Positions 2,415 through 63,490 of a DNA stretch of 64,000 nt are shown here, one piece after another. Under the pieces are notes generated by a model that did not search any database, was not told the DNA's origin, and saw nothing but the letters and a program-made list of their open reading frames with translations. Both the position numbers and the translations under genes were made by a program. This DNA is from Tridacna crocea. Lineage: Eukaryota; Mollusca; Bivalvia; Cardiida; Cardiidae. The stretch is taken from positions 16,889,001 through 16,953,000 of the forward strand of contig OX031058.1 of assembly GCA_943736015.1 (NCBI GenBank), written 5' to 3'. Within the stretch, counting starts at the first letter, position 1; every line of letters starts with the position of its first letter.

Positions 2415-2487
2415 TTAAACTCTTTATTGTAAAATGACATTTATGGCAGTGCAATTCTGTGTGTGAGAAGTCAAGTACAGTAAAACT

Positions 2488-3582
2488 ATGGCCGAAAAGA
2501 AATCTTTACGTGACCGCCCTATCGTGGACTACAAAAAAATGCATGAATTTGGTGTAGATGGATCCGTCTTTTCTCCCCCGTCAAGCCCCATTGTACGCCG
2601 AGAACTAGACCAATGTAAACAAGTGAGTCAGGAACCAGATTTGAATGAAGAAAACTTCCGGGAGGAGAAGGAACGGCTGACGGCACGTTTGAAAGAACTA
2701 CGACAAGCTAAAGAGTTACAAAACTTGAGAGAGGAGGTAGCAAGAGCGGAGAAAGATCTATTATTGGACAAAAAATCAAGTAATAGGGACATTTCACCCA
2801 AAAAGAAAGTGGACACACACGGTGACAAAGGTAATTATTTAAAGTTGGACGATTTGAGAAAATTGCCAAACCTTAAGAAGAAGTCACAAAAGGAAATTGT
2901 AAAATTAGGTTTGTTTGATAGTGACAGCGAAAGTAGTGTTTCAGAAACTGAATGTGATTCTTTACAATTCAAATCTCAAAAGCATAAATCGGGTATAATA
3001 TCAAAAGCGTCAGATTCTGTCGTCTGCCCACAAAAATACCCTCATTCCCATTTAAGATTTGAATTTGTCAATCGATCTGTTGATTATGACAAACTATCAT
3101 TCAACATGTTTGTTGCAGGTGAGCTGGAAATAATTTCCAGTAGTGACATTTCATCCAATGAAAGAACGGGTCGAACCGAGTTGTTAAAACGTCTTATGTA
3201 TTTAAACAATGCATATGATTTCAGTGTGTTAAAATCCTTGTATGCGGCAATCCTGAGAGAAATTGAATTGGGCTACAGAAAGTGGGGAGAGGACTTCATA
3301 TATATTGAAAATACTATTTTGGCATCAGCCTCCAATAAACTTAGACCAAAAACAGATTTCTCTCAGGGTTGTTCTATGCCCACATCAGACAAACAAGAAG
3401 ATAGAATATGGTTTTGCTCGAAATTTCAACGTAATAAATGTACATTTAAAGATTCACACATAGTTCAAATTAAAGGCAAAGTTAAAATGGCAAAACACAT
3501 ATGTGCAACTTGTTGGCAGAAGGACCGAAAGGAACTTTCTCATCCAGAATGTTCTTCTGCTTGTCATTATGCTACACAATGA
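2488..3582 (+). CDS. Gag-like protein of the Ngaro-type element
   Basis: A 364-residue open frame. Residues about 55-95 are highly charged and probably coiled-coil (REEKERLTARLKELRQAKEL). A Ser/Asp/Glu-rich tract follows near 145-160. The C-terminus has a zinc-knuckle-like Cys/His cluster (CSKFQRNKC...HICATCW...CSSACH), typical of the nucleic-acid-binding tail of DIRS/Ngaro first proteins. By family knowledge it should package the element RNA. Assignment rests on position and the Cys/His tail, not on a recognised capsid fold. Confidence 0.7.
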   Translation: MAEKKSLRDRPIVDYKKMHEFGVDGSVFSPPSSPIVRRELDQCKQVSQEPDLNEENFREEKERLTARLKELRQAKELQNLREEVARAEKDLLLDKKSSNRDISPKKKVDTHGDKGNYLKLDDLRKLPNLKKKSQKEIVKLGLFDSDSESSVSETECDSLQFKSQKHKSGIISKASDSVVCPQKYPHSHLRFEFVNRSVDYDKLSFNMFVAGELEIISSSDISSNERTGRTELLKRLMYLNNAYDFSVLKSLYAAILREIELGYRKWGEDFIYIENTILASASNKLRPKTDFSQGCSMPTSDKQEDRIWFCSKFQRNKCTFKDSHIVQIKGKVKMAKHICATCWQKDRKELSHPECSSACHYATQ

Positions 3583-3903
3583 CTTTCTATTATTGATGAA
3601 CAAAAATTACTGAAGTTTAACGATGCAGCAGAAATTTTCTTTCCACATTTCTGTAAATTCAGGTCTTTTAATGTTTTTAATGATTGTAAAAAAGATAATG
3701 CACAATCCATTTCTGCTTTTTCGCAGCATTGTAAAAATTACGATAGTAATTCCGAAAATTGTACACTATGTACAAAGATTAAACCTATACTCCATTCAAG
3801 CACCATAGATAAATTACGCTTACATGATTTAGTAGTAAATTCTGGCCAGTTCAATTATCAATGTTGTAGAGTACAGATAAATTTCAAATTCAATGTAGAC
3901 TTC

Positions 3904-5501
3904 ATGAAAAGAATGTTACATGGATATAGAGACATGTTAGTTTTAGATTTGTTAAAATTTGGGTTTCCAATAGAGTTATCACAAAAACAAATTACTTTAG
4001 TTAAAAAGCCAAAATTGAAAATAAAAAATCATCAAGGAGCAGAAAATTATCCCAAGGATATTAATAATTATTTAGTCAAAGAGGCCACTTATGGTGCAAT
4101 TATTGGGCCTTTTTCTAGTAATCCTTTCAAGGATATTCTTTGGTTGTCTCCACTGAATTCAGTTCCAAAAAATAACTCCAAAGAAAGAAGAGTAATTCTA
4201 GATCTTAGTTTTCCTAGAGATGGAAACAATGTAAATAGATATATAGATAAAGATTTTTATTTGGGGGAAAAAGTAGAGTTACTCTTTCCAAAAGTTGATG
4301 ACCTCATTGCATTAATTCAAAGTAAAGGATCAGGTGCTTTGATGTTCAAATTAGATTTAAAAAGAGCTTACAGACAAATCAGTATTTGTCCATCTAGTTA
4401 CAATCTTGTTGCTTTTAAATGGAAAAAGCATATATTTTGTGACACAGTGTTACCCATGGGTCTGCGTTCGTCAGCTCAGATTTGTCAAAGAGTGACTAAT
4501 GCCTTTTCATATATGTGTTTAAATTTAGGAATAGCGGTTCTTAACTATTTAGACGACTTTGGAGGTGTGGAGAAAAAGGAATTAGCATGGTTTGCTTTTA
4601 ATACAGTTAGAGAAATTTTCAAACGTAGTGGATTCGAAGAAGCTTTCGAAAAAGCCTGTGAACCCTCTGAATCCATGGTGTTTTTAGGTGTTCTTTTTAA
4701 CACAAAAACAATGACTGTGTCGGTCACCCTGATAAATTAATGGAGATACGTAATTTGGTCAAAATTTGGCAGGATAAAACATCTGCGTCTTTGAAAGAAA
4801 TCCAAAGTCTTTTAGGCAAGTTGAATTTTGTTGGTGCATGTGTCAGATCTAGCAGAATATTTATAAACAGAATTCTTAATTGGCTTAGAGATTGTTATGC
4901 TTTGAAATCCTCTTTAAGTCTTTTTGAAGTACCATTTGAGGTTAAAAAGGACCTAGTGTGGTGGGACAAGTTTCTCCCAAAATTCAATGGAATTTCCCTA
5001 ATTGATCATGGTCAATGGACAGATCCCGATGTCATCATTAGTTCAGATAGTTGTTTATCTGGCTGTGGTGGGTTTTTCAACAAAAGATATTTCCATGCAC
5101 AATACCCAGATTTCATTTTAGATAAAAATTTACACATAAGTGCCTTAGAATTATTAGCCATAGTTATTTGCCTTAGAGTATGGGGTTCTCTTTTAAAAGG
5201 CATGAATATACATATTTTTTGTGACAATTTAGCAGCCTGTATTGTCATAAACTCAGGTAAAGCAAGATGCTCATTTTTACAGCAGTGTTTGAGAGAAATT
5301 TGTTTTTTGACTTCAACTCTAGATATTCACATGAAGGCAAGTCATCTAAACAGTAACGAAAACAGGTTAGCAGACAGCTTGTCTCGTTGGCATTTAGAAG
5401 ATAAATATAAAAAATTCTTTTTCTCAAACTTCAAAGATCATTCAGATCTTGTAGAATGTGCTATAGAGAAAGATTACTTTCACTTTTCTCATCAATGGTA
5501 A
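3904..5501 (+). CDS. Reverse transcriptase-RNase H region of the Ngaro-type element
   Basis: Copies the element RNA into DNA. The RT palm is clear: a LDLKRAYRQI block, LPMGLRSSAQ, and the catalytic YLDD. The RNase H domain follows with SSDSCLSGCGG, an ALELLA helix, a FCDNLAA block and the closing ADSLSRW, giving the acidic residues expected of the fold. The region spans two abutting open stretches and is treated here as one fossil part. It lies between the gag-like frame and the recombinase, as in Ngaro and DIRS elements. Confidence 0.85.
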
Positions 5502-5541
5502 TTCCATTTCAGGTAAAAATCTACAGGTTTTAACTAGGCAT

Positions 5542-6474
5542 ATGAGACAGTCAACCAAGTCAGCCTTTGCTGTTGGTACTCATTCCAACCTGATAGTTCA
5601 GTGGGAAGCCTTCATTATGTTTTGTTTATACTTTAAATTGTCTTTTTTACCTGCATCATGTGAAACGCTAAGATTATATGCACAATTTCTCTCTAGATCA
5701 TTTAAATCAGTTGACAGTATCAAGAATTATATCGCAGGTGTTAAGACTTTGCATATTCTAGCAGGAAAAGAGTTGTCTCCCTTTTCTGAATTTTCTTTAA
5801 GTTTAACTCTTAAAGGTTTATCAAGATTAAAGCCACATATGCAAAAAAGAGCAAGTCCTATCACAATAAACTTATTAAAAGAATTTCATAAGAATATGGA
5901 TTTTAGTATCAGTGATAATATTGTGTATTGGTGTTTATTTCTTTTTGCTTTTTTTTTAGCTTCAAGAAAATCAAACTTAGTTCCGACAACTCAGAAAGAC
6001 GTAGAATCTGGCAGATTTCTACATAATGATGACATAGAAATTTATGATAATTTTTTACTAGTAAAATTTAAATGGTCTAAAACTATACAATTTGGACAAA
6101 GGGAGTTAATGAGTCCCCTTGTACCTTTAGCGGATAAATCAATTTGTCCTGTGACAGCTTTTCATAAATTAAAAGCTTTAAAATTTACACATCCTTCAGG
6201 AGCTCTTTTTGTAAACAGTAAGGGAAAATGTATTACCTATTTCTTATTTCAAGAGAAATTACGTGAATTTGTAGAAAAGTCAAAATTAGATCCAAAATCC
6301 TTTTCCACACATTCTTTTAGAAGAGGTTTTGCCACATTAGCCTTCCAGGCAAATTTGCCTTCAGAATACATTCAACTGTTAGGAGATTGGAAGTCAGACA
6401 GTTATAAATGTTATTTGGAACTATCCTGGAAAGATAAGTTGGTCATTCTGCAAAACATGCTCAAGGAGCTGTAA
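5542..6474 (+). CDS. Tyrosine recombinase of the Ngaro-type element
   Basis: A 310-residue open frame of the phage-integrase (tyrosine recombinase) superfamily. The first catalytic Arg lies in FFLASRKSNLVP. The HxxR box is HSFRRGFATLAF, followed by LLGDWKSDSYKCYLEL, which supplies the Trp/His-position residue and the nucleophilic Tyr. By family knowledge it inserts a circular DNA copy without making a target duplication. The N-terminal part (residues about 1-110) resembles the SAM-like core-binding domain. It starts 41 bp after the RNase H region. Confidence 0.85.
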   Translation: MRQSTKSAFAVGTHSNLIVQWEAFIMFCLYFKLSFLPASCETLRLYAQFLSRSFKSVDSIKNYIAGVKTLHILAGKELSPFSEFSLSLTLKGLSRLKPHMQKRASPITINLLKEFHKNMDFSISDNIVYWCLFLFAFFLASRKSNLVPTTQKDVESGRFLHNDDIEIYDNFLLVKFKWSKTIQFGQRELMSPLVPLADKSICPVTAFHKLKALKFTHPSGALFVNSKGKCITYFLFQEKLREFVEKSKLDPKSFSTHSFRRGFATLAFQANLPSEYIQLLGDWKSDSYKCYLELSWKDKLVILQNMLKEL

Positions 6475-6509
6475 AATTGTTGTCCACTTCTCTGATACAT
6501 GTATAATAT

Positions 6510-6526
6510 TTGGTTTCCTCTATTTT

Positions 6527-6558
<32 letters not shown>

Positions 6559-7082
6559 TTTCAGAACAAATACTAGTCCACATTATTTCAGACTCGATTG
6601 CGAAGCATGTAAATGGTATCAACCACACAAAAGTGCATGCCTTTCCTGGTATTAACATTTCTCGTTTGTCTCGCCGAGTAGAAACTCACCCAGAATTACT
6701 GAACACAAAATTCATTATATTACATGTTGGTACTAATGATATCACCACTCTATCTGTTGGAGAGATAATGAGTAGTTTTCAAAACCTCATCACCATTATC
6801 AAAAACAAGTCAGATGTTAAAATAATAATTTCCAGTATTTTACCACGCCCAATTGATCATTCTACCTTAGGATTAAAGGTGAAAAATGTAAACCTTGGTT
6901 TGAAAAATCTTTGCATTACTAGAAAAATACAATATCTTCATTCTTATCGTCCTTTTCTCAAAGGAGGTCAACCTATCAGAGAGTTGTTTGCTATAAGGGA
7001 TCGGGGACTGCATTTGAACTCAGAAGGCACAAGAAGGCTTCGATCATTTTTTATCAATTGTGTTGCACATTTATTGAAATGA
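6510..7082 (+). CDS. SGNH-hydrolase-like protein of the Ngaro-type element
   Basis: SGNH/GDSL-esterase fold: block I in HIISDSIAKHV (the Ser of DS), a Gly in HAFPGINISRL, block III in LHVGTNDITTL (GTND, Asn), and the C-terminal DRGLHLNSEGTRRL (Asp and His). All four diagnostic blocks are visible within 190 residues. Ngaro-type elements are known to carry such a domain; its substrate is not known. The first ~20 residues come from a (TA)n and poly-T tract ending in CAG at 6551-6564, so that segment may be an intron end and the true first codon may lie downstream or in an upstream exon. Confidence 0.8.
6530..6551. repeat. (TA)n microsatellite
   Basis: Short TA run directly followed by an oligo-T tract, between the recombinase and hydrolase frames. 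Confidence 0.9.
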
Positions 7083-16097: not shown

Positions 16098-16188
16098 TCT
16101 AGATTGCTCTCGTATCAATACAAAGTGTTCATTATTATCATTAGATAAATAGACCAATTTTTTTAAAGAAAATTTTCCTCTGAACAAG

Positions 16189-18685
16189 ATGCCCCCTAAA
16201 GGCAGCGGCAAAGGGAAGGAAAAGGCACCAGCCCCGAAACGCAAGAGACAAGAGCCCCAGCCACAGCGGGAACCCAGCAGCAGCAGCGACGACGACGAGA
16301 TGGAGCCCGTGCCTGCTCTCGATGTGGAGGAGGAATATGATGAGGAAACCAATAATAAGGGGGTCCAACAGATCGACGACAAGATATGTGAGTTCTTCGA
16401 ACAGAACAGTTTTTACTATGACCTGACGCACGAGTCCTATAAGGACAAAAAGAGGAGGGACATCACCCTTGCCGAATTTGCTCTGACGCTTGGCCCAGAT
16501 TGGAGTGGGGACAAGATATGGAATAGGTTCAAAAGCTTGCGGACCGATTACTGCAAGATTAAAGCTCAACTCAAGAAAGGGAAAAGCGGATCCGGTGCCA
16601 AGAAATTGACGCAGAAACAACAGTGGAAGCTAAGGGCCTTCCAATTCCTTGAACCGTACAGCCGCAAGGGAGCCTGCATCAGCCAAGACACAGAACTTGG
16701 ACGGGTAAGCCAGGACAAGTTTTTTTAGATACACATTAATTACTCGCGTTAAATTCTTCACATTTATAATTTCTCATCTTATTTTATATCTTGTGCTTAT
16801 GCTTCTAGATACCCACACAACCAGGAGACGACGACGACACTTCCCACCAAGACGATACCATAGAGACAGCCTATACCTCAGTAAAAGCCGGCCCTTTTCA
16901 GCCGAAGCAACAAGGAAAGAAACCCAAGGGGTCGTCGGAACTCGTGTCGTTGTGGAAGAAGGTTTTGCTAGCTGACCGTGCTCAAGAGGACAACATGAGA
17001 AAAACGGTGAGTACCATTGTTTATCTGCTGACAGATTTATTGTCAGTTCATAGTTGCACAATGTTTAGGCCTACTTTGACATTCATTATTTTTTATGCTG
17101 TTGTATAAGTGCGAGCTTATTGTTGGTTCTTTACTTTAAATCCAAGATTATTCCCATGATTTTAAAGCCAAATAAATAAATAAATTTTCTTGGGATCGAT
17201 AACATTGTCATTATTTCTAGGTAATTCGCCAATACCAGTTAATCATATCAAGCACCCTACATTTGTTCTTTATCTTTAAAACACGCCATTGTACTGTTTT
17301 ACTGCTCCACTGTTGTTCTTGGTAACTTTACGTTTTATGTACTACCCATGTGAAGTTAGCAGTTAAGCAGTAATAGCAGCAGTTACTGCTCTTACTTCTC
17401 TTACTGTCAACTTCACATGCATCCTTGTGTACAGGTGCAGGACTTGGGGAAGACGCCGGATGCCAGGCAGGCTTGGGCTGCGTGGTTTGCCTCTGTTTGC
17501 CAGGACGTCCCTCAAGAGCGTTTCAGGGAGTTCCAGCACGAGACATTCACAGTGTCCATGCGATACCTCCAGCAGTCTTCCCAACAGGTGCCCCAGCAAC
17601 AGCCAATATGGCAGCCCCTGCCGCCCAAAAACCAGCTACCCATGTGGCAGCCCCCCAACGCCACAGCCCCAGCAGCAACCTGGGTAGGGTCATCCCAGCC
17701 GCTGCAGCAGCAGCACCTGCAGCTTCCCCTGCAGCACCGGTCGTACACACCCACCCAGGACGTACAGAGATTCACTGTAAGTATCTATTTGCTTATTTTA
17801 CTGTCACATGATACTTTGACATAATTATGTCTCTCCCATTTTTAAAATGGGGAGACATTGTTTTTGTCAGATTTGTCTGTCCGTCCGTCCGTTCGCCCAC
17901 CGCTCGACCGTCCGTCAGTCCGTCTGTCTGTCTGCCTGTCACAAATTGCGTTCTTGACTTGCAATTCTGTTCATCCGCTGAAATTAACAACAAAGGATTT
18001 AATTGCGCTTCGGATATATCGTATATCTGAAGCGCAATTAAACCGAATTTACAGGCCTAACACATTTCAAACCATTTATGGAATAGATGAATTCATCATT
18101 ATTCTCAGAACTTGTATTATGTGTTAGAAATATTCTGCACGTTTCTTGTTCTTCGAACATATCTAAAGCCTGCGACAAATGTGGTCTGAGTCGTAGTCCG
18201 ATATTTTCCGTATCACAAGTGTATCGCCAGTATGTTAGTTGGATATGAAGCTCGTACATCGGTCTTTCCATGTACGATAGAGCTGGGCTCGAGGTTCACG
18301 GGACAGCTCGAGCGCTACGCGCTCTCGGTGTCACATGAACCTTGTGCCCAGCTCTTTCTTAGACGGAAAGACCAATGTACTCGATCGTATAACCATTACA
18401 TCTGTATGTTTCCAGACTATCACCTTAGGTGAGATGGGCATCTCAACTGGTAACCTCAGGCCCAAGTCAGCCCCGTCGTCATCCAAAATCATACAACAGG
18501 CCTTAAATGTAACTATGGAACCGACCGCCAGCACACTCAGCCCAGTACTGACATCACAGTACCAGCCTCCGTCACTGCCGTCATCTGCACAGCCACAGCC
18601 AGAGCAGCAGTCCACAGATCCTGGCGCGTCGCTCAGCCTTTCCCTCGGCTTATCCTCTGGGCTGCACGATTCCAGCTTGGAATAA
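16189..18685 (+). CDS. Harbinger MADF/Myb-like DNA-binding protein, four exons
   Basis: By family knowledge, this partner protein binds the element ends and helps nuclear import and recruitment of the transposase. Exons are 16189-16704, 16809-17006, 17435-17776 and 18416-18685. Every junction is phase 0 with GT donors (GTAAG, GTGAG, GTAAG) and AG acceptors, giving about 441 residues. Residues 1-30 are basic (KRKRQ, a likely nuclear signal), followed by a Ser/Asp/Glu stretch. Residues about 60-155 form a MADF/SANT-like domain (ICEFFEQNSFYYDLTHESYK...WNRFKSLRTDY). Exon 3 has a conserved-looking DARQAWAAWFASV...FQHETFTVSMRYL block, then Gln/Pro-rich sequence. The third intron holds two repeat insertions but keeps its splice sites. 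A poly(A) signal follows at 18915. Confidence 0.85.
17821..18050 (-). mobile_element. Microsatellite-bearing repeat in the third intron
   Basis: Begins with a palindrome (GTCTCTCCCATTTTTAAAAT against ATGGGGAGAC, 17829-17854), then a degenerate CCGT/CTGT tetranucleotide tract (17875-17940). It resembles the microsatellite end of pearl/Helentron-associated repeats in reverse orientation. The far limit is uncertain. Confidence 0.6.
17999..18041. repeat. Near-perfect 43-bp palindrome
   Basis: TTAATTGCGCTTCGGATATA pairs with TATATCTGAAGCGCAATTAA around TCG, with one mismatch over 20-bp arms. It lies inside the third intron of the Harbinger Myb-like gene. Confidence 0.85.
18256..18380. repeat. Foldback insertion next to the last exon
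   Basis: The arms share GGTCTTTCC, AGAGCTGGGC and AGGTTCA blocks in matching order and spacing, closing at GAGCGCTACGCGCTC. It lies 36 bp before the acceptor of exon 4, so it could affect splicing. Confidence 0.7.
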
Positions 18686-19361: not shown

Positions 19362-20690
19362 TCAATCACGTGGTGCGATGGCTGCCTCCTGCCATGGCAC
19401 ACTGCCAACGTCACTGTTGTAATAGGCTTTGAGATATGCGTGCAGTTCTTTTCCCTGTACCGTCTGTCGTGGCCCACGTCCCTCTGTACGAATCTCCTCC
19501 AAAACTCCAGCATCTCTCCATGCCCCTGGTATTATGTCCCCGTTTTCCAGCTCAACGTCCAGTTCGTTTGCAGCGATGGTAGGGCGTTGGTCACGCATCA
19601 CGTTGTGGAGGGTCACACAAGCCTTTGTTATCCACGCAGCAACTTGTGGTTCAACCCACAAGCATGAGTGAAGGCATCTAAACCGGGCAGCCAGGATGCC
19701 GAAAGCATTTTCAACAACGCGCCTGGCTCGTGAACACCGGTAGTTGAAGATGCGTTGGTCGTGGTCCAGTAATCTATCCGGATACGGCTTCATCATATAG
19801 GTATGAAGAGGGAATGCATCGTCACCGACGAGGAAATAAGGGATGTCTCTGTCGTCGTGGGGCAAGGGGCTCGGCCTGGGGAAGGCGAGGGTGTCCTGTC
19901 GAAGTCCAGGTTCTAATTGAGACCTATTGTAGACACCACAGTCTGAGTACGATCCAGGAGACCCCACGTTGACCCACAGGAACTTGTACTCCGCGTCAAC
20001 AAGTCCCAGCAGTACGATTGAAAAGAACCCCTTGTAGTTGTGATAGAGGCTGCCCGACTTCCTTGGCTTCCGGATGCGTATGTGTTTCCCGTCCAACGCC
20101 CCGCACACATGATTGAAGTTCCATCTGGTGCTGAACTTCTCGGAAACTTCTTCCCATTCTCCTTCGGTGCTAGGGGTGGTCCACTGTTCTTCTTTGAACT
20201 CTTCAATTATGGCCTGGCATACCTCCGGCACAAACAGTGATATGGTGTTGTGTGCCACCCGAAAATCGAACTCCAAGGCTCGGTATGAGATTCCTGTTGC
20301 CAGGAATCGTAGGGTAATGGCAAGCTTCATACCCGGGCTTATCGGCAATCGGTTCTTCCGACACTTCGTGATGTGGGGCGCCACTCTTTCCAGTATATGA
20401 ATGAAGATGTCGAAATCCATCCGTAGGAAGGATTTAAAGCCCCCACGGTCTTCCATACGCAGCTCGTTCATGAGTGTGTCGTACTGGCCGAGTAGCACTC
20501 TTCGCTGCAGCCATGGCCGCACCCAGCAAGTCCGTGTTCTTCGCTGCTGTTGGGCACGCTGTTCTTCTTCAAGCAGCAGGGAAGCCAACAGTAACTGCTG
20601 TCTTCTTTCAGTCCTTTGCAGCCTCCATCTCAATTCGGCAATACGAACGTCTCTGATTCGCTCTGGTGCAATAAGAATCGCCATGACCAC
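19362..20690 (-). CDS. Harbinger DDE transposase (HARBI1-like)
   Basis: Single-exon 442-residue protein of the DDE_Tnp_4 superfamily, of normal length for the family. It cuts and joins the element ends. Residues about 113-160 are a helix-turn-helix-like region (ISPGMKLAITLRFLATGISY...). The catalytic triad is visible: Asp200 in GALDGKHI, Asp290 in VGDDAFPL, and Glu327 in VVENAFGILAARFR. Family blocks YHNYKGFFSIVLLGLVDAEY and GSYSDCGVYNRS are intact. The N-terminal 60 residues are Arg/Gln-rich. Two nearby Met codons (positions 1 and 3) could start it; the TATA box is so close that the second is equally plausible. No interruption is visible. It converges on the Myb-like gene within the same element. 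Confidence 0.95.
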   Translation of the reverse strand: MVMAILIAPERIRDVRIAELRWRLQRTERRQQLLLASLLLEEEQRAQQQRRTRTCWVRPWLQRRVLLGQYDTLMNELRMEDRGGFKSFLRMDFDIFIHILERVAPHITKCRKNRLPISPGMKLAITLRFLATGISYRALEFDFRVAHNTISLFVPEVCQAIIEEFKEEQWTTPSTEGEWEEVSEKFSTRWNFNHVCGALDGKHIRIRKPRKSGSLYHNYKGFFSIVLLGLVDAEYKFLWVNVGSPGSYSDCGVYNRSQLEPGLRQDTLAFPRPSPLPHDDRDIPYFLVGDDAFPLHTYMMKPYPDRLLDHDQRIFNYRCSRARRVVENAFGILAARFRCLHSCLWVEPQVAAWITKACVTLHNVMRDQRPTIAANELDVELENGDIIPGAWRDAGVLEEIRTEGRGPRQTVQGKELHAYLKAYYNSDVGSVPWQEAAIAPRD

Positions 20691-20717
20691 TATTATGTGT
20701 GTTGGATGGCCTTGAAT

Positions 20718-29394: not shown

Positions 29395-29623
29395 TTAACC
29401 CTTTACTCCATAGATACTCATTTCTACGCATTGCTTGTAGGAGCCTTTGGAAAACATTGTGGCAAAAGGTGAATTTGCTCATGACGAACAACTTCACCTT
29501 TTGCCACAATGTTTTCTATGCTATCAAAATGTGTCAAATACACATAAGAAACAGCTTCATCCTTGCTGTTATTTAGGGTCAATTAGAGATACCATAGAAA
29601 TGCCGTATGCGGTAAAGGGTTAA
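29395..29623 (+). repeat. Hairpin MITE type B, full length
   Basis: Best type-B copy: TTAACCCTTTACTCCATAG to GGTAAAGGGTTAA, stem ACATTGTGGCAAAAGGTGAA with its partner. Its right TTAA is also the left TTAA of the 4-kb element. Confidence 0.9.
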
Positions 29624-30231
29624 CTAGCATTCTCCCTAAGAATCATGCAGGCCCTGTAGAAATGGTGATAAGTGACTTTTTCAGAATACCAAAAAAAGTT
29701 AGTGCAATTGATTCCTTTAGTCACAAAAGTTCAAAAGCCAAAGGGAAACTTTTATTGTCATGCTGTTACCATGGCAACGGCCACAGAAAGTTTTTGCCCC
29801 CAGAGGCATATTTTTTCCTTTTTAAAACTTGAAAAATTAAGCACTTTGAAGTTAATACAACATATTTGTCACCAAAAGTCCGGTCAGTTGGCAACAAACA
29901 AAGGCTGTAATTCGCATTTCTGCTGGTGGCTTAAATTGACAAATTTCTATCTCAATTATCTCCTAACAGCAAAGCTAGGATTTAAGGTTTCAATATTGGG
30001 CATAAAGACTAATGTATTGGGTCACAAATAAAAAAATAAAAAAGGTCAAAATGTTTTTAGGTCAGGTTACCATGGCAACCAAAGTGACAACAGATTTAGA
30101 AAATTTGGAAAATGCTGTATTTTATGCAAAAAAATGACCACTAAACACAAATATTTGAACATCAGTTAATATGACATATGAAGTATTAACACAAATTTGA
30201 AAAGCTGCAAACAAGATATTTTGGTTTTGTG

Positions 30232-31085
30232 TCTAAATTTGGTTTCCATGGCAACCTGAATCTCGACACTGGCATAAAATTGCAATTTTTGCTTATTTTC
30301 ATGGCAAAATTGTAGAAACTAGAGTAAGTAAATTGAATAACTTTGGTTTTAGAAATAGCTATTGATCTAACATGTTGTCGATGAAAAAATAACAATGAGC
30401 ATATCAAATCATACTCTAGGTAACCATGGCAGCCAAAGTGGCAATGTATCGGTAAAATTGAGAAAATACCATTCTTTCAAATAAAATGAACAACAATTTA
30501 GAATCTTCATACCCCTCTATATATGGTTCATGGCATGTCAGTTTCATTAGCTCCACTGGCAGAAGGCCAGCTGGCTTATGTCATGCCCAGGTATCCGTCT
30601 TGCGTCTGTGTGTGCGTTTGTGTGTACACGTGCGTGGTATGTGTGTGCATATGTTAAATTTTATTTCAAACATCTTCTCTGAAACTACCCATCCAAATTT
30701 GATGAAATTTCACAGAAATTATCCGGCCATGATCTTCTTCAGAATTTTTTAAAAAGAATTTTATTCCTTAAAAAACTCTGGTTTCTATGGCAACCTTAAT
30801 CTCGACACTGGCATAAAACTGCAATTTTTGCTTATTTTCAAGGCATAATTGTAGAGACAAGAATGAGTAAACTGAATAACTTTGGTTTTAGAAATCGCTA
30901 TTAGTCTAATGTATTGTCCATGAAAAAATAGCAATGAGCATATCATATCATACTTTAGGTTACCATGGCAGCCAAAGTGGCAACATATCGGTAAAACTGA
31001 GAAAATACTATTATCTATCAAATAGAATGACCAACAATTAGGAATGTTCATACCCCTCTATACATAGTTCCTGGCATGCTAGTTT
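30232..31085 (+). repeat. Direct duplication of about 300 bp with an insert
   Basis: Copies at 30232-30540 and 30781-31085 share the landmarks CTCGACACTGGCATAAAA, AATAACTTTGGTTTTAGAAA and CATACCCCTCTATA. The middle segment (30545-30780) has a TG-rich microsatellite and is a separate repeat. Confidence 0.75.
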
Positions 31086-31119
31086 TCATTCATAAAGTAG
31101 CATACATGCTAATTATCTC

Positions 31120-31535
31120 CCGCCAAAAAGGCGGCTATGTATATGGTAATAGTAGCCATCTGTCTGTCTGTCTGTCTGTCTTTCTGTCTGTCTATCCATT
31201 CTTCCTCCATTCTGTCTATCCGTCTTTGCATCCCAATTTCTTGTATGGAGCACAACTAAAAAACTATTTGAGATATAAAAATGAAACTACACAGATGGAT
31301 AGATCTCATAAAAGAGAAGTGCAGTACATAAGAACCATAACTCTTGATTGCGTATTTTAAGGGTTATTGCCCTTTATTTTCTCACTTAAATTTTGTCTAC
31401 AGCATAACACAAAAACTATTTGAGGGATAAACATGAAACTTCACAGATGGATAGATCTCATCAAAGAGAAGTGTGGTGCATAAGAACCATAACTCTTGAT
31501 TGCATATTCAAGAATTGTTGCCCTTTGATATTTTG
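31120..31535 (-). mobile_element. Microsatellite-tandem repeat inserted in the 4-kb element
   Basis: A (CTGT)n tract at 31160-31200 follows a CCGCCAAAAAGGCGG hairpin. Then come two units of about 153 bp that share AAAAACTATTTGAG and CATAAGAACCATAACTCTTG. Pearl-like plan, in reverse. Confidence 0.6.
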
Positions 31536-31856
31536 TTATTTTCCATACTTTTATGGGGATGAGTTTACTGTTCTGTTGCCATGGTAACATTTTTTTTCTG
31601 AAGTGTTGAATACTTTTTATCTTTTGTATGTGCATAACACATATTAGTCATTTAAAGTAGGTTTAATTCATTTAGATGATTTTTAGCTGGAAGGGGTTAA
31701 CTTGCTTTGAACAAGCTGTTATTTGTTATGGTTCATTGATTTGGTTGCCATGGTAACATGACTGGGCCATTATTTTTTTCTTTTACATTTTAATATTGAC
31801 AAACAGATGAGGGTAATTTAAGTAAGTATTATTTATCAATGTAATCCTTTGTTAAT

Positions 31857-33460
31857 GGGCGGTAGTTTACTTTGAATGTGCTGATTTTTGTTAGAATCGC
31901 AAAATGTTGGATAGTTTGGTTGCCATGGAAACTAATATTTGGATTGTTGCAGAACTTAGATTTTTCTGTATTGGTTGAACAGATGTGGATCCATTCAATA
32001 CGTAAATACACTGTAAATATTTTTCCTAGCAGAAGGGAGATAATTTGCTCTAAAATTGCCACTTTTTTGAAGAAACACTGACGGGTCAATAGTTTTGTTG
32101 CCATGGTTACAACAATTATTAACATTTTGAGTTTTTTCATTGTTGGCTGTGAAAAATCAGATGTTGCTCGTTTAGGCACTACATGTATTTTGCATATGCA
32201 CCTTTGCTGTTAGAAGATAATTTGGCTTGAAAATCTTCAAAATTGGAAGTTTGAAACATTGGTTTCTATGGCTAAACTTTTGTTGCTATACAACACAATG
32301 CAAGTGACATTTTATATTTTTCTATATTTTTCTATGTAATTTCAAGTACTACTCATGCCGTCCTTTTGACATAAGTAGTAGTATAGATAATCTAAAAGGG
32401 CAGTAGTTTACTTTGAGTGTGCAGATTTTTGCTAAAATCGCGAACTGTTGGTTAGTTTGGTTGCCATGGTAACTAATATTTGGATTGTTGCAGAACTTAA
32501 TTTTGTCTTTATTGGTTGAACAGATGTAGATCATTTAATACATAAATACACTGTAAATATTTCTCTTTGCAGAAGGGAATTAATTTGCGTTGAAATTGCC
32601 ACTTTTTTTTGAAAAATCACTGACGGGTCAATAGTTTTGTTGCTATGGTTACAAAAATTATAGATATTTTGAGTTTTTTTATTGTTGGCTTTGAAAAATC
32701 AGATGTTGCTCGTTTGGGTACTATATATATTTTTCGTATGCACCTTTGCTGTTAGAAGATAATTTGGTTTGAAAATGTTCAAAATTGGAAGTTTGAAAAA
32801 CTGGTTTCTATGGCTAAACTTATGTTGCTATGCAACACAATGCAAGTGACATTTTTTATTTTTCTATGTAATTTCGAGTACTACTCATGTCCTCCTTTTA
32901 ACATAAGTAGTAGTATAGATTATCTGAATGGGCGGTAGTTTACTTTGAATGTGCTGATTTTTGTTAAAGTCGCAAACTGTTGGATAGTTTGGTTGCCATG
33001 GTAACTAATATTTGGATTGTTGCAGAACAATTTTTTTTCTTTATTGGTTGAACAGATGTGGATCATTTAATATGTAAATACACTGTTAATATTTCTCTTT
33101 GCAGAAGGGAGATAATTTGCTTTGAAATTGCCACTTTATTGCAAAATCACTGACGGGTCAATACTTTTGTTGCCATGGTAACAAAAATTATAAACATTTT
33201 GAGTTTTTTTATTGTTGGCCGTGAAAAATCAAATGTTGCCCATTTAGGCCCTATATGTATTTTTCATATGCACCTTTGCTGTTAGAAGATAATTTGGTTT
33301 GAAAATATTCAAAATTGGAAGTTTGAAAAACTGGTTTCTATGGCTAAACTTCTGTTGCTATGTAACACAATGCAAGTGACATTTTCCATTTTTCAATGTA
33401 ATTTTGAGTACTACTCATGTCCTTTTTGTAATATAAGAAGTAGTTTAGATAATCTAAATA
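31857..33460 (+). repeat. Three tandem units of about 535 bp
   Basis: Units start with GGGC(G/A)GTAGTTTACTTTGA at 31857, 32398 and 32930 (periods 541 and 532). Each contains two good X-box-like palindromes and one decayed one (TTTCTATGGCTAAA), about 178 bp apart, so the unit looks like a trimer of a nucleosome-length monomer. Confidence 0.85.
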
Positions 33461-33702
33461 ATAATTATTTGTCAAAAACCACCCTAAAAAGTGTCATTTT
33501 TCAATTTTTTGACTGACAACTTTTGACCAATTTCCATGAAATTTTGATTTCTCGTTTCCATGGTAACCACTGTCAGAAACTGGGAATGCTTTGTTTTTGG
33601 AAAGTTTCTCAACAAGTCTGATGGAATGAGGGTAAAACCAATGAATTCTGTGACTAGTCACTTATCACCATCTGCATGATTCTTAGGGAGAATGCTAGTT
33701 AA

Positions 33703-38929: not shown

Positions 38930-40294
38930 GAGGGCCAAGATGGCCCTGGATCGCTCACCTGAATTTTTGAGATGACCATAGCCTATTTTTTTTTTAGGTA
39001 TTGAAACATTGGAACCAAATTTATAATTTTGCTAAGCAATTTTCAAAAGGTCACCTATAAAATTAATTTCGAAATCTGACCATCAGTTTCAAAAAGAAGA
39101 ATTTTTAAGAATTCTTCATCTCTGTATAAGAGCAAGTATCCCCCATCCATGAGAGCCATGTTTCTTGATGGATCAAAATTTACAAACAAGTTTTGAAAAG
39201 GGTCACCCAAGGAACATTTAGGAAATTTTCTTTTAAAATCTGACCAGGGGTTTCAGAGAAAGAGAATTTTCAAGAATTTCATCATGTCCAAATAGTGCAA
39301 GAAGCCCCCATTCACAAGAGCAAGGATCACCAAGGAACATCTCTGTCAAATTATTTTAAAATCTGACAAGGGGTTTCAGAGAAGAAGAATTTTCAAGAAT
39401 TTCTTCATTTCCCTATAGTGCAAGTAGCCCCCATTCACCAGAGGCATGTTTCTTGACCAATCAAAATTTTGCAAACACTTTTTGAAAAGGGTCACCCAAG
39501 GAACATCCCTGAGAAATTATTTCAAAATCTGACCAGCGGTTTCAGAGAAGAAATTTTTTTAAGAATTTCCTCATTTCCCTATAGTGCAAGTAGCCTCCGT
39601 TTAACAGAGCCATGTTTCTTGACCAATCAAAATTTCGCGAACAATTTTTTAAAAGGGTCACCAAAGGAACACATCTGTGAAATTATTTCAAAATCTGACC
39701 AGTGGTTACAGAAAAGAAGATTTTTTAAGAATTCCTTCATTTCTGTATAGTGCAAATAGCCCCCATTCACCAGAGCCACATTTTTTGACGGATCAAAATT
39801 TCACAAACAATTTTTGAAAAGGGTCACCCAAGGAACATATCTGTGAAATCATTTCAAAATCTGACCAGCGGTTTCAGAGGAGAAGATTTTTAAAGAATTC
39901 CTTGATTTCTGTATAGTGCAAGTAGCCCCCATTCACCAGAGCCACAATTTTTGACGGATCAAAATTTCACGAACAATTTTTGAAAAGGCTCACCCAAGTA
40001 ACATATCTGTGAAATAATTTCAAAATCTGACTCGCGGTTTCAAGAGGAGAAGATTTTTAAAGAATTTGCTAAAAAATTCCATTTGGTTGCCATGGTAACC
40101 AGAGTTTTTGACGGAATCAAATTCTATGAACAGTTTTTAAGGAGGACCTCCCAAAGAACATTCCTGCCAAGTTTGGTCCAAATTGGCTCAGCGGTTTAGG
40201 AGGAGTTGATGTTTAAAGAATTGTTGACGACGCTCGACGGACACCCAGTGACCCTAAAAGCTCCCCTTGAGCATGTTGTGCTCAGGTGAGCTAA
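38930..40294 (+). mobile_element. Pearl/Helentron-associated-type element, 1.37 kb
   Basis: Starts with an AGGGCC-aagat-GGCCCT hairpin and TCGCTCACCTGA. Ends with GACGGACACC, a TGAGCATGTTGTGCTCA hairpin and GGTGAGCTAA, so the termini TCGCTCACC / GGTGAGC are inverted and the last bases are CTAA. The core is about six units of 166 bp (landmark GACCAGCGGTTTCAGAG at 39250, 39539, 39705, 39871, 40037, with one shortened unit). This matches the plan of bivalve pearl elements. Non-coding. Confidence 0.75.
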
Positions 40295-40299
40295 AAAGG

Positions 40300-40790
40300 G
40301 CTAAGCTCTTGGAAACTTTATTTAATTAACTAAGAACAATTTATGATATGCATATCTTTGCTGAGTGAAAAGTCTATCCATGAAGTTTGAAAGAAATTTG
40401 TCCAGAATCATCAAAGGGCCATAACTCCATGAAACCTAAATAAACCACAACCAAAACAGGATATGCACATCTCTGCTTGATACTGAGTCTATTTGTGTAG
40501 TATGAACCAAATCTGTCCAAAAGTTGATCAGAAAAAGAGTGGACATGAAATTTCATGAAAGGGCCATAACTCAGTCAAAAATTGATGCACCATAACCAAC
40601 ATTTCATATGCACATCTCTGCTTGATACTGAGTTTACCTGTAAAGTTTGAATAAAATTTGTCCAGTAGTTTATGAGAAATAGAGCGGACAAAAAGCTACA
40701 GACCGACCGACGGACGGACAGACAGACCGACCAACAAGCTGACTCCTATATACCCCCCAAACAGAGTTTTGGGGGGTATAATGACAAATT
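40300..40790 (+). mobile_element. Second tandem-core repeat with GGAC microsatellite
   Basis: Units of about 143 bp share GCACATCTCTGCTTGATACTG (40467, 40610). A CGGACGGACAGACAGACC tract follows (40695-40730), and the element closes with a CCCCCCAAACAGAGTTTTGGGGGG hairpin and TATAATGA. Different termini from the 38.9-kb element. Confidence 0.65.
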
Positions 40791-61250: not shown

Positions 61251-62224
61251 ATTTTATTCTGACGTTTGGATTTTTGTGATGACTCTACCAACAGTTCTTA
61301 CTTAACTGTTACAAGTCTTTACTCCAAATTTGCTATATGATTGGCCAAGACATTCTGCCATTCAGGTGGCTTATCGTGGAATTTAGAACAAGAGGACCAT
61401 GATGGTCCTATATCGCTCACCTGAGTACCAAGCAGCAAAGGTCTACAATAAAGATAAATACCAAATATCAAGGTTCAAGGCTAAATGATAATGAAACAAG
61501 AGCAGCGATTTGTCACAATTTGACTTGAGGCTTTGAAGTTCCATTCAAGACAAGCAAGAAATACTGTAAGAATGAAGATCAATGTGGAATTACATGAAGT
61601 TCGCACTACGTAGAGTTATGCTTCTTGCACATTGTACTCTGTAATACTGCAACAAACATGCATACCAAGTTTGAAGTCGTTCTGACTTGAGATGACAAAC
61701 TTATATTCCAGACAGGCACTAAATGCTGTAAAAATGACATTAAAATGGAAATAACTCGACAGCACGAATTAGAGTTACAATTCTTGTGCACTACACTTCC
61801 AAATATTGCACCAAATAATCATACCCAATTTCAAGTCATTCCTACTTAGGATGACAAAGTTTTGCTCCAGACAAGCAAGAAATGCTATGAAAATGAAGTT
61901 CAAAGGGGAAATAACTCAAAATTCAAGCTAGGAAGAGTTATGGTTCTTGTGCACTGCACTCCATAAATATACAACGATCATGCATATCAAATTTGAAGAT
62001 GTTTAGGCTATAGATGACAAAGTTATATTCCAGACGAGCAGAAAATGCTGTAAAAATGATAATCAAAGGGAAATAACTTACAGACAGTATACGGTAGAGT
62101 TATGGATCTTTCACATTGCACTCTGCATTATTGCAACAAACACAAATATCAAGTTTCAAGTCAATCAGACTGGAGATGACAAAGTTATGCTCTGGATTAA
62201 GAACTATTATAAAGAACTTTCTAA

Positions 62225-63490
62225 TTCAAGGGCAAATAACTCCAGTTGTTTGCCTCCGATTATACCCATAATTAAACTCATCCAAGATCTTATGGTCATA
62301 TATATTTTGATAAAGTTTGGTGCTGATTGGTAGATATTTATAGATGCTAGAGTGTAAACAAAGTGAAATACAGCAATTTTTCTAATTCAAGGGCAAATAA
62401 CTCCAGATGTTCTGATCTGATTAGACCCAAAATCGAACTCATCCGAGATCTTATGGTCATATATACTTTGACTAAGTTTGGTGCTGATTGGTTGATATTT
62501 GTAGATACTAGAGTGTAAACAAAGTGAAATACAGCAATTTTTCTAATTCAAGGGCAAATAACTCCAGATGTTCTGGTCCGATTAGACCCAAAATCGAACT
62601 CATCCGAGATCTTATTGTCATATATACTTTGACCGAGTTTGGTGCTGATTGGTTGATATTTGTAGATGCTAGAGTGTAAACAAAGTGAAATACAGCAATT
62701 TTTCTAATTCAAGGGCAAATAACTCCAGATGTTCTGGTCCGATTAGACCCAAAATCGAACTCATCCGAGGTCTTATGGTCATATATACTTTGACCAAGTT
62801 TGGTGCTGATTGGTTGATATTTGTAGATGCTAGAGTGTAAACAAAGTGAAATACAGCAATTTTTCTAATTCAAGGGCAAATAACTCCAGATATTCTAGTC
62901 CGATTAGACCCAAAATCAAACTCATCCGAGATCTTATGGTCATATATACTTTGACCAAGTTTGGTGCTGATTGGTTGATATTTGTAGATGCTAGAGTGTA
63001 AACAAAGTGAAATACAGCAATTTTTCTAATTCAAGGGCAAATAACTCCAGATGTTCTGGTCCGATAAGACCCAAAATCGAGCTCATCCGAGATCTTATGG
63101 TCATATATACTTTGACCAAGTTTGGTGCTGATTGGTTGATATTTGTAGATGCTAGAGTGTAAACAAAGTGAAATACAGCAATTTTTCTAATTCAAGGGCA
63201 AATAACTCCAGATATTCTAGTCCGATTAGACCCAAAATCAAACTCATCCGAGATCTTATGGTCATATATACTTTGACCAAGTTTGGTGCTGATTGGTTGA
63301 TATTTGTAGATGCTAGAGTGTAAACAAAGTGAAATACAGCAATTTTTCTAATTCAAGGGCAAATAACTCCAGATGTTCTGGTCCGATAAGACCCAAAATC
63401 GAACTCATCCGAGATCTTATGGTCATATATACTTTGACCAAGTTTGGTGCTGATTGGTTGATATTTGTAGATGCTAGAGTGTAAACAAGA
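62225..63490 (+). repeat. 161-bp tandem array, eight units
   Basis: TTCAAGGGCAAATAACTCC recurs at 62225, 62386, 62547, 62708, 62869, 63030, 63191 and 63352, exactly 161 bp apart every time. Units are nearly identical after the first, so the array is young. Confidence 0.95.

Follow-up and report, generated by a model that had tools for sequence, protein, structure and literature searches.

The 64,000-nucleotide stretch of the Tridacna crocea genome analyzed here (contig OX031058.1, forward-strand positions 16,889,001 to 16,953,000; hereinafter, the window) contains a mobile element, denoted E, that is a non-autonomous (gene-less) DNA transposon with TTAA ends and a body of mirror-image, satellite-like arrays, in which a 14-bp box apparently corresponding to the target of RFX transcription factors recurs 15 times. 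The explanation we favor, with a probability of about 0.5, is that RFX factors of the host would bind these boxes, and that the boxes would be kept because they help the elements that carry them. RFX proteins switch on cilia genes in animals, and their textbook target is the X-box.

The ends of E form a perfect 31-bp inverted match (29620-29650 against 33672-33702) that consists of TTAA and a 27-bp terminal inverted repeat (TIR); the borders proposed in the first-pass annotation of this DNA, 29624 to 33698, agree with the TIR limits, TTAA lying outside. That annotation had also called the region a mobile element, and this is borne out by the TIRs, the TTAA ends and the many genomic matches of the end 31-mer, 204 + 204 in the 1.05-Gb genome at up to three mismatches, with none for the reversed control. 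The boundary features are as follows.

29620 to 33702, no strand: element E, TTAA-flanked non-autonomous DNA transposon (31-bp perfect inverted end match; genome matches of the 31-mer)
29620 to 29623, no strand: left TTAA of E, probable target-site duplication (copy comparison)
29624 to 29650, plus strand: left 27-bp TIR of E (inverted end match, copy comparison)
33672 to 33698, minus strand: right 27-bp TIR of E (inverted end match, copy comparison)
33699 to 33702, no strand: right TTAA of E, probable target-site duplication (copy comparison)

Ten copies of E were compared, namely, the window copy and those in loci L018, L024, L032, L034, L045, L047, L048, L049 and L053; L054, in which one end is missing from its stretch, was excluded. 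These copies are 3.8 to 6.0 kb long and share a common map with small differences. TTAA is present at both ends in eight of the ten, the other two having one changed base at one end, and no additional flank repeat of 4 bp or longer was found in any of them; the TTAA ends probably represent a target-site duplication, although TTAA is its own complement. The longest stop-to-stop frame across the ten copies is 132 residues, so that E does not make its own transposase. PiggyBac-type TIRs start with a C-rich CCY end. The TIR of E starts with YTAGCATTCTCCC in the ten copies (one with C for T at the eighth base) and lacks this piggyBac feature. The genome contains many long piggyBac frames, with at least 118 matches to PF13843 (DDE_Tnp_1_7), and no listed PF13843 match lies inside the two longest E TIR pairs found, by eye, among the first 100 of 408 TIR places (C7:48900236-48909079, 8.8 kb, and C12:46947185-46956981, 9.8 kb); inserts or an autonomous copy of E could lie inside these two pairs. 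In five of the ten copies (L018, L034, L045, L048 and L049; BLAST), E adjoins the terminal TTAA of another repeat family that starts with TTAACYCTTTACC or a similar sequence; the left flank of the window copy, gtaaagggTTAA, resembles this family by eye, with no BLAST match. One TTAA element seems to reuse the TTAA of another.

Each of the 15 box positions proposed in the first pass contains GTTGCCATGGTAAC with zero to two mismatches on the better strand, and seven of these are exact. All were located by motif scan, complemented by copy alignment for the leftmost one.

29765 to 29778, minus strand: X-box, exact, terminal left, unchanged in 10 of 10 copies
30066 to 30079, minus strand: X-box, exact
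30242 to 30255, minus strand: X-box, 1 mismatch
30420 to 30433, minus strand: X-box, 2 mismatches
30781 to 30794, minus strand: X-box, 2 mismatches
30959 to 30972, minus strand: X-box, 1 mismatch
31575 to 31588, plus strand: X-box, exact, opens the right arm
31744 to 31757, plus strand: X-box, exact
31919 to 31932, plus strand: X-box, 1 mismatch
32097 to 32110, plus strand: X-box, 1 mismatch
32460 to 32473, plus strand: X-box, exact
32639 to 32652, plus strand: X-box, 2 mismatches
32992 to 33005, plus strand: X-box, exact
33169 to 33182, plus strand: X-box, exact
33554 to 33567, plus strand: X-box, 1 mismatch, terminal right

The 15 boxes change orientation at the center of the window copy, six on the minus strand being followed by nine on the plus strand, a regularity that had not been recorded before. 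Across the ten copies, 142 of the 146 boxes with up to two mismatches are on the strand expected from this pattern (minus in the left arm, plus in the right arm); the remaining four comprise a tie in L049 and, in three copies, the box at the right end, which is one mismatch better on the other strand. At three mismatches, a few additional boxes occur on the opposite strand. The first box starts at element position 146 in all ten copies, and in the window copy, the last one ends 135 bp from the right end of E. Much of the right arm consists of a higher-order repeat, the unit of which, about 535 bp long, comprises three monomer types of about 177 bp, two with a box and one with a decayed box; a second block is conserved among the monomers as well.

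31854 to 33458, plus strand: right-arm array, three copies of the higher-order unit (repeat families and second-block search)
33103 to 33126, plus strand: reference copy of ‘box 2', the other block conserved among the monomers (most frequent position, 42 bp upstream of an X-box)

The mirror arrangement brings to mind an explanation in which the box is the site for the element's own mobilization protein, mirrored between the two arms, an arrangement known from some foldback transposons, and the likeness to the RFX target is incidental. The strand bias of the boxes and the unchanged box 146 bp from the left end are consistent with such a role, and extra transposase-binding sites are described for the tandem repeats that lie within the inverted repeats of Galileo (PMC4079207). 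The boxes of E are mirror-oriented in the arms, but the similarity between the arms is patchy, the best match apart from the TIR being 54 nt at 81%. What speaks against such a role is that the same word is found in E, with its TTAA and TIR, and in a second family, B (see below), with a 3' hairpin and different ends, two families that should require different enzymes; moreover, the match to the full 14-bp X-box would have to be a coincidence. This explanation appears unlikely.

The excess of boxes is evident already at the level of the window, where GTTGCCATGGTAAC at up to three mismatches has 34 strand-wise matches compared with 5.18 +/- 2.65 expected, a count that none of the 100 shuffles reached. 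The X-box consists of two inverted RFX half-sites separated by a short spacer, with the published consensus GYTRYY-N(1-3)-RRHRAC (PMC3414849), also given as GTNRCC N0-3 RGYAAC (PMC3414849, PMC10530576), and in the available descriptions, the half-site GTTRCY is conserved across fungi and animals (PMC10530576). When the sites of E were scanned with the first consensus at a spacer of N2, 12 of the 15 window sites fit, compared with 0.16 on average, and never more than 2, across 300 runs of a first-order Markov null with the composition of the element; in the ten copies, 104 of the 139 sites in ten classes fit. Chance or a low-complexity artifact as the source of the boxes is ruled out by the shuffle and Markov nulls. 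The first-pass annotation had identified the boxes as X-boxes and made this claim depend on enrichment over shuffled sequence; such enrichment is observed both in the window and within E, and judging from the fit to the consensus, the assignment of the motif to the RFX X-box appears well founded.

As for the binders, the host genome has nine matches above the cut-off to the RFX DNA-binding domain (PF02257), which are exon pieces, so that the number of RFX genes is less than nine; the best of these (C4) aligns with the RFX1 domain of PDB 1dp7 (E-value 4.7e-32). Given these domains and the conserved RFX specificity, RFX is the natural candidate, and binding of the boxes by RFX proteins of the host is likely.

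Genome-wide, GTTGCCATGGTAAC has 1,925 exact occurrences (964 + 961; reversed control, 2 + 0), and the perfect palindrome GTTGCCATGGCAAC has 17,995 (reversed control, 0), or 27,842, exact ones included, at up to one mismatch (reversed control, 27). Among the first 100 places listed for GTTGCCATGGTAAC, 80 sites fall within examined loci: 48 belong to ten E loci (counting L054), 23 to family B, four to family C (L029 and L040) and five to none of these. Family B unites BLAST clusters of 14 and 9 sites, regarded on inspection as a single family whose box is read in either direction. Of the first 21 places listed for GTTGCCATGGCAAC, the 20 newly examined all belong, by inspection, to family B, and so does the 21st, in an already sampled locus. 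The window contains a copy of this family.

38930 to 40305, plus strand: family B element, Helentron-like, borders approximate (array, box, hairpin)

In this copy, a 166-bp tandem array (39322-40067) is followed by one exact X-box (40086-40099), which was missed in the first pass and belongs to family B rather than to E, and then by a 3' hairpin (40259-40292). As in Helentrons and HINEs, an inverted motif is located close to both ends of this one copy (gctcacctga near 38953 and tcaggtgagc near 40282). Its hairpin has an energy of -10.1 kcal/mol (z -2.9), with 2 of 200 shuffles as good (again, one copy), and no 5' microsatellite is seen by eye from 38930 to 39060. In family C (L029 2335-3590, and L040), six boxes with up to two mismatches, at spacings of 141, 427, 148, 155 and 150, largely alternate in orientation inside a repeated unit of about 570 bp; a GGAC-rich microsatellite (2226-2255) is located upstream of these boxes, as in Helentron left flanks. 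Beside the five box loci outside E, B and C (L027, L031, L036, L042 and L046), no ciliary gene was detected among 20 chosen open reading frames, a thin test given that exons can be short; one of these frames has two hits, both below the cut-off.

Conservation of the box can be gleaned, first of all, from the comparison of E copies. In eight box positions, or slots, that could be paired between individual copies (9-10 copies per slot), 15 of the 1092 box letters changed (1.4%) compared with 343 of the 9348 letters in the +/-60-bp flanks (3.7%), that is, the box changes about 2.7 times more slowly than its surroundings. Random windows of 14 columns are as unchanged as the box with P of 0.0013 (0.0074 without CpG columns), and among the 120 common offsets, the box itself (offset 0) has the fewest changes. 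Slot R1, whose poly-T flank exaggerated the difference, was dropped from this count (with R1 included, 15/1218 in the box vs 471/10422 in the flanks, P 0.00025), and slots A, B and L7 stayed outside it, as their array copies do not allow one-to-one pairing; the window copy was left out of slot L2 (box missing, spacing of 301 instead of 203 + 184), and L049 was left out of slot L6, where its box is in B-like sequence.

Comparison of the eleven monomer types of E mainly shows that these are, on average, unrelated outside the box, the flanks being 52.8% identical, compared with 51.7% after shuffling (upstream flanks), and 70.7% in the closest pair. In a test less dependent on how the sites were chosen, monomers were identified in the ten copies by the second block, AGAAGGGAGATAATTTGCTTTGAA, at up to eight mismatches on both strands, and either of the two box words was sought 20-110 bp downstream: 62 of the 97 places have an X-box at up to three mismatches (30 exact), which in 39 of the 62 is at 42 bp, whereas in shuffled sequence, the best match has, on average, 6.2 mismatches. 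Copies of family B were also selected through a downstream anchor rather than through the box itself; in two such sets, of 20 and 10 copies, the exact box is kept in 14 and 6, respectively, and the four copies of the second set without it include two with one mismatch and two that are box-less. Between the consensus sequences of the two B subfamilies, the box is identical in 14 of 14 positions, compared with 58% and 67% identity in the adjoining 30 bp upstream and downstream, respectively, and 72% in the next 30 bp upstream (the B2 consensus leaves out two of ten rows, the box-less L109 and L113, which were counted as losses). The comparisons within E are read as evidence, of moderate strength, that the box is under purifying selection, either at the level of the element lineage or after insertion.

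Several observations weigh against maintenance of the box for RFX binding. The box identity between monomer types of E, 90.6%, is inflated because the sites were chosen at up to three mismatches. The conservation between copies is mainly at the G and C positions, the A positions showing none (6/270 vs 71/2776), and gene conversion between copies could have affected the counts over the +/-60-bp slots. Changes within the box do not track the tolerance of RFX, given that 19 of the 33 private single changes fit the consensus, compared with 18 of the 42 possible ones, and one of the four distinct single-change class variants breaks it; this test is not discriminating. Among the monomers identified by the second block, 35 of the 97 have no box within three mismatches, including 16 with a decayed box at four and 19 with none better than five, so that not every box is needed. 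Finally, 10 of the 30 B copies picked regardless of the box lack an exact one (6/20 and 4/10), and in one of the B subfamilies, conservation of some other stretches equals that of the box.

The two families appear to have exchanged sequences. A segment of the left arm of E resembles family B up to the box at 30781.

30640 to 30780, minus strand: family-B-like stretch adjoining the X-box at 30781, with E sequence beyond the box (hits in 10 of 22 B loci)

The matches of this segment to the ten B loci are at 66-87% (best, 86.7%), whereas the sequence on the other side of the box, 30795-30900, matches none of the 22; slot L6 of E is thus a chimera in which E and B sequences meet at a box. In L049 (oriented element position 1236), both sides of the box are B-like by eye. 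Together, these two cases indicate that exchange between E and B happens, and the position of the junction suggests that it may be located at the box.

Such a junction lends some support to two further explanations. Under the first, the box is a functionless relic of a monomer ancestral to both families that was spread by exchange between elements and is alike through recent copying. The chimeric slot and L049 point to this kind of exchange, and in bivalves, satellite families have been described whose monomers, although diverged elsewhere, have two conserved motifs in common (PMC5139131). However, outside the box, the monomer types of E are, on average, no more alike than shuffled sequence, and between copies, the box accumulates fewer changes than the sequence around it, so that a relic origin seems rather improbable. 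Under the second, the palindrome is a recombination or template-switch junction of the elements, kept for that role; apart from the B/E join, it finds a parallel in the phBglII400 satellite, where 13 of 16 junctions are reported to be associated with a 12-bp palindrome (PMC5139131). Only a single junction type is seen here, however, the same study, as far as its account of BIV160 and Cg170 goes, offers no statistical support for such a link in these two (PMC5139131), and the junction role does not account for why the palindrome is exactly an X-box; we consider this explanation highly unlikely.

Under the explanation that we favor, RFX binding followed by retention of the box, RFX dimers of the host would bind the boxes of both E and B, given that the motif is the full published X-box and that RFX specificity is conserved in animals and fungi. 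The bound element would gain, most likely by being kept open or transcribed in cells that express RFX, perhaps, as a guess, those that form sperm; copies with an intact box would be mobilized more often, and the box would be kept while the surroundings drift. As a by-product, thousands of strong RFX sites would be scattered in the genome, where they might be used as enhancers or act as an RFX sink. A bolder version, which we regard as doubtful, is that most of the strong RFX sites of this host are the property of transposons: the tens of thousands of exact or almost exact palindromes in Helentron-like elements, together with the ordered arrays in E, would constitute a scattered platform occupied by RFX, which would sequester or divert this regulator of cilia and sperm. 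E would be a mobile analog of a protein-bound satellite, and its box would be kept through RFX binding in the male germ line, which would favor mobilization of the element.

The spacing of the boxes requires a separate interpretation. In the window copy, successive boxes are 301, 176, 178, 361, 178, 616, 169, 175, 178, 363, 179, 353, 177 and 385 bp apart, and in the ten copies, most spacings are 169-185 bp or about twice that. Genome-wide, 252 pairs of GTTRCCATGGYAAC have a gap of 150-180 bp, compared with 14 with a gap of 190-220 bp, so that the spacing of about 177 bp is not peculiar to the window copy. In the account of oyster tandem repeats, 160-180 bp is the commonest monomer length, with 51.41% of the monomers (PMC7492417). 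Because the spacing in E matches this usual length, it was not taken as evidence of nucleosome phasing. Thus, of the nucleosome-like spacing suggested in the first pass, the regularity stands, whereas the phasing, which had been deduced from the spacing itself, finds no support beyond what the ordinary monomer length explains: the period of about 177 bp is an inherited monomer length and by itself is no evidence of phasing to nucleosomes.

Some features of E and B have counterparts among known repeats. In alpha satellite, monomers of about 170 bp share one short protein-binding box, the CENP-B box. The monomers of E likewise share a single short box, but the factor is different, the arrays are short, mobile and dispersed, and nothing points to centromeres. 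Retrotransposons are said to have spread CTCF sites, another instance of a mobile element carrying a regulatory word. Placozoan Mutator TIRs at chromatin loop anchors similarly spread a short regulatory word, but in the published account, chromatin data tie the motif to loops, whereas for E the factor is guessed from the consensus (PMC12221973). In pig short interspersed elements, motifs of three RFX family members are amplified; this is an enrichment in motif scans, and arrays or perfect palindromes are not part of the available description (PMC10471783).

With respect to architecture, family B resembles Cg_HINE of Crassostrea gigas, non-autonomous Helentrons with central tandem repeats of about 165 bp (PMC7492417), in its array of about 166 bp, matching inverted motif near both ends, 3' hairpin and many dispersed copies; the passages describing Cg_HINE do not mention an RFX box (PMC7492417), and E, with its TTAA ends and TIRs, is not of this kind. 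The bivalve pearl elements (CvA, DTC84) are described as modular and gene-less, with short satellite-like arrays and, in DTC84, a conserved palindrome near the repeat junction (PMC5139131), but E differs in having two mirror-image arrays. The foldback elements Tetris and Galileo have tandem repeats inside inverted arms, Tetris being gene-less and the Galileo repeats containing extra protein-binding sites (PMC4079207), whereas the arms of E match in patches only, and the arrays do not include its 27-bp TIR.

Elsewhere in the window, frames at 2467-7082 match reverse transcriptase, RNase H (just below the cut-off), a phage-type integrase and a GDSL lipase, a gene set that we take to be that of a DIRS/Ngaro-like retrotransposon. 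A GC-rich stretch at 16-22 kb includes a 451-residue frame with a DDE_Tnp_4 domain (19362-20717, minus strand) and, nearby, a frame with a MADF DNA-binding domain (16153-16728, plus strand), presumably a Harbinger-type transposon. At 62218-63488, there is a 161-bp tandem array of 7.9 copies with 96% match, with a unit length close to that of bivalve satellite monomers.

No paper containing GTTGCCATGGTAAC was found in a text search of the open literature; GTTGCCATGGCAAC does occur there, in what appear, from their titles and the opening of their abstracts, to be papers on Drosophila or conserved cilia genes. In the open literature, searched mostly at the title level, no description of RFX boxes in satellite-like transposon arrays was found, subscription papers being outside this scope. 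Transposons that carry transcription factor sites are a known kind; what is unusual is the form, a gene-less TTAA element in which a single box is repeated in ordered, mirror-image arrays, beside a huge dispersed population of perfect boxes in another family. Few examples of mobile DNA shaping gene control are clearer than transposons that disseminate the binding sites of one regulator. If RFX indeed binds these boxes, one ancient regulator would be flooded by mobile sites in this clam, and it would become possible to ask directly whether, in ciliated cells or in cells that form sperm, a transposon benefits from a factor of its host.

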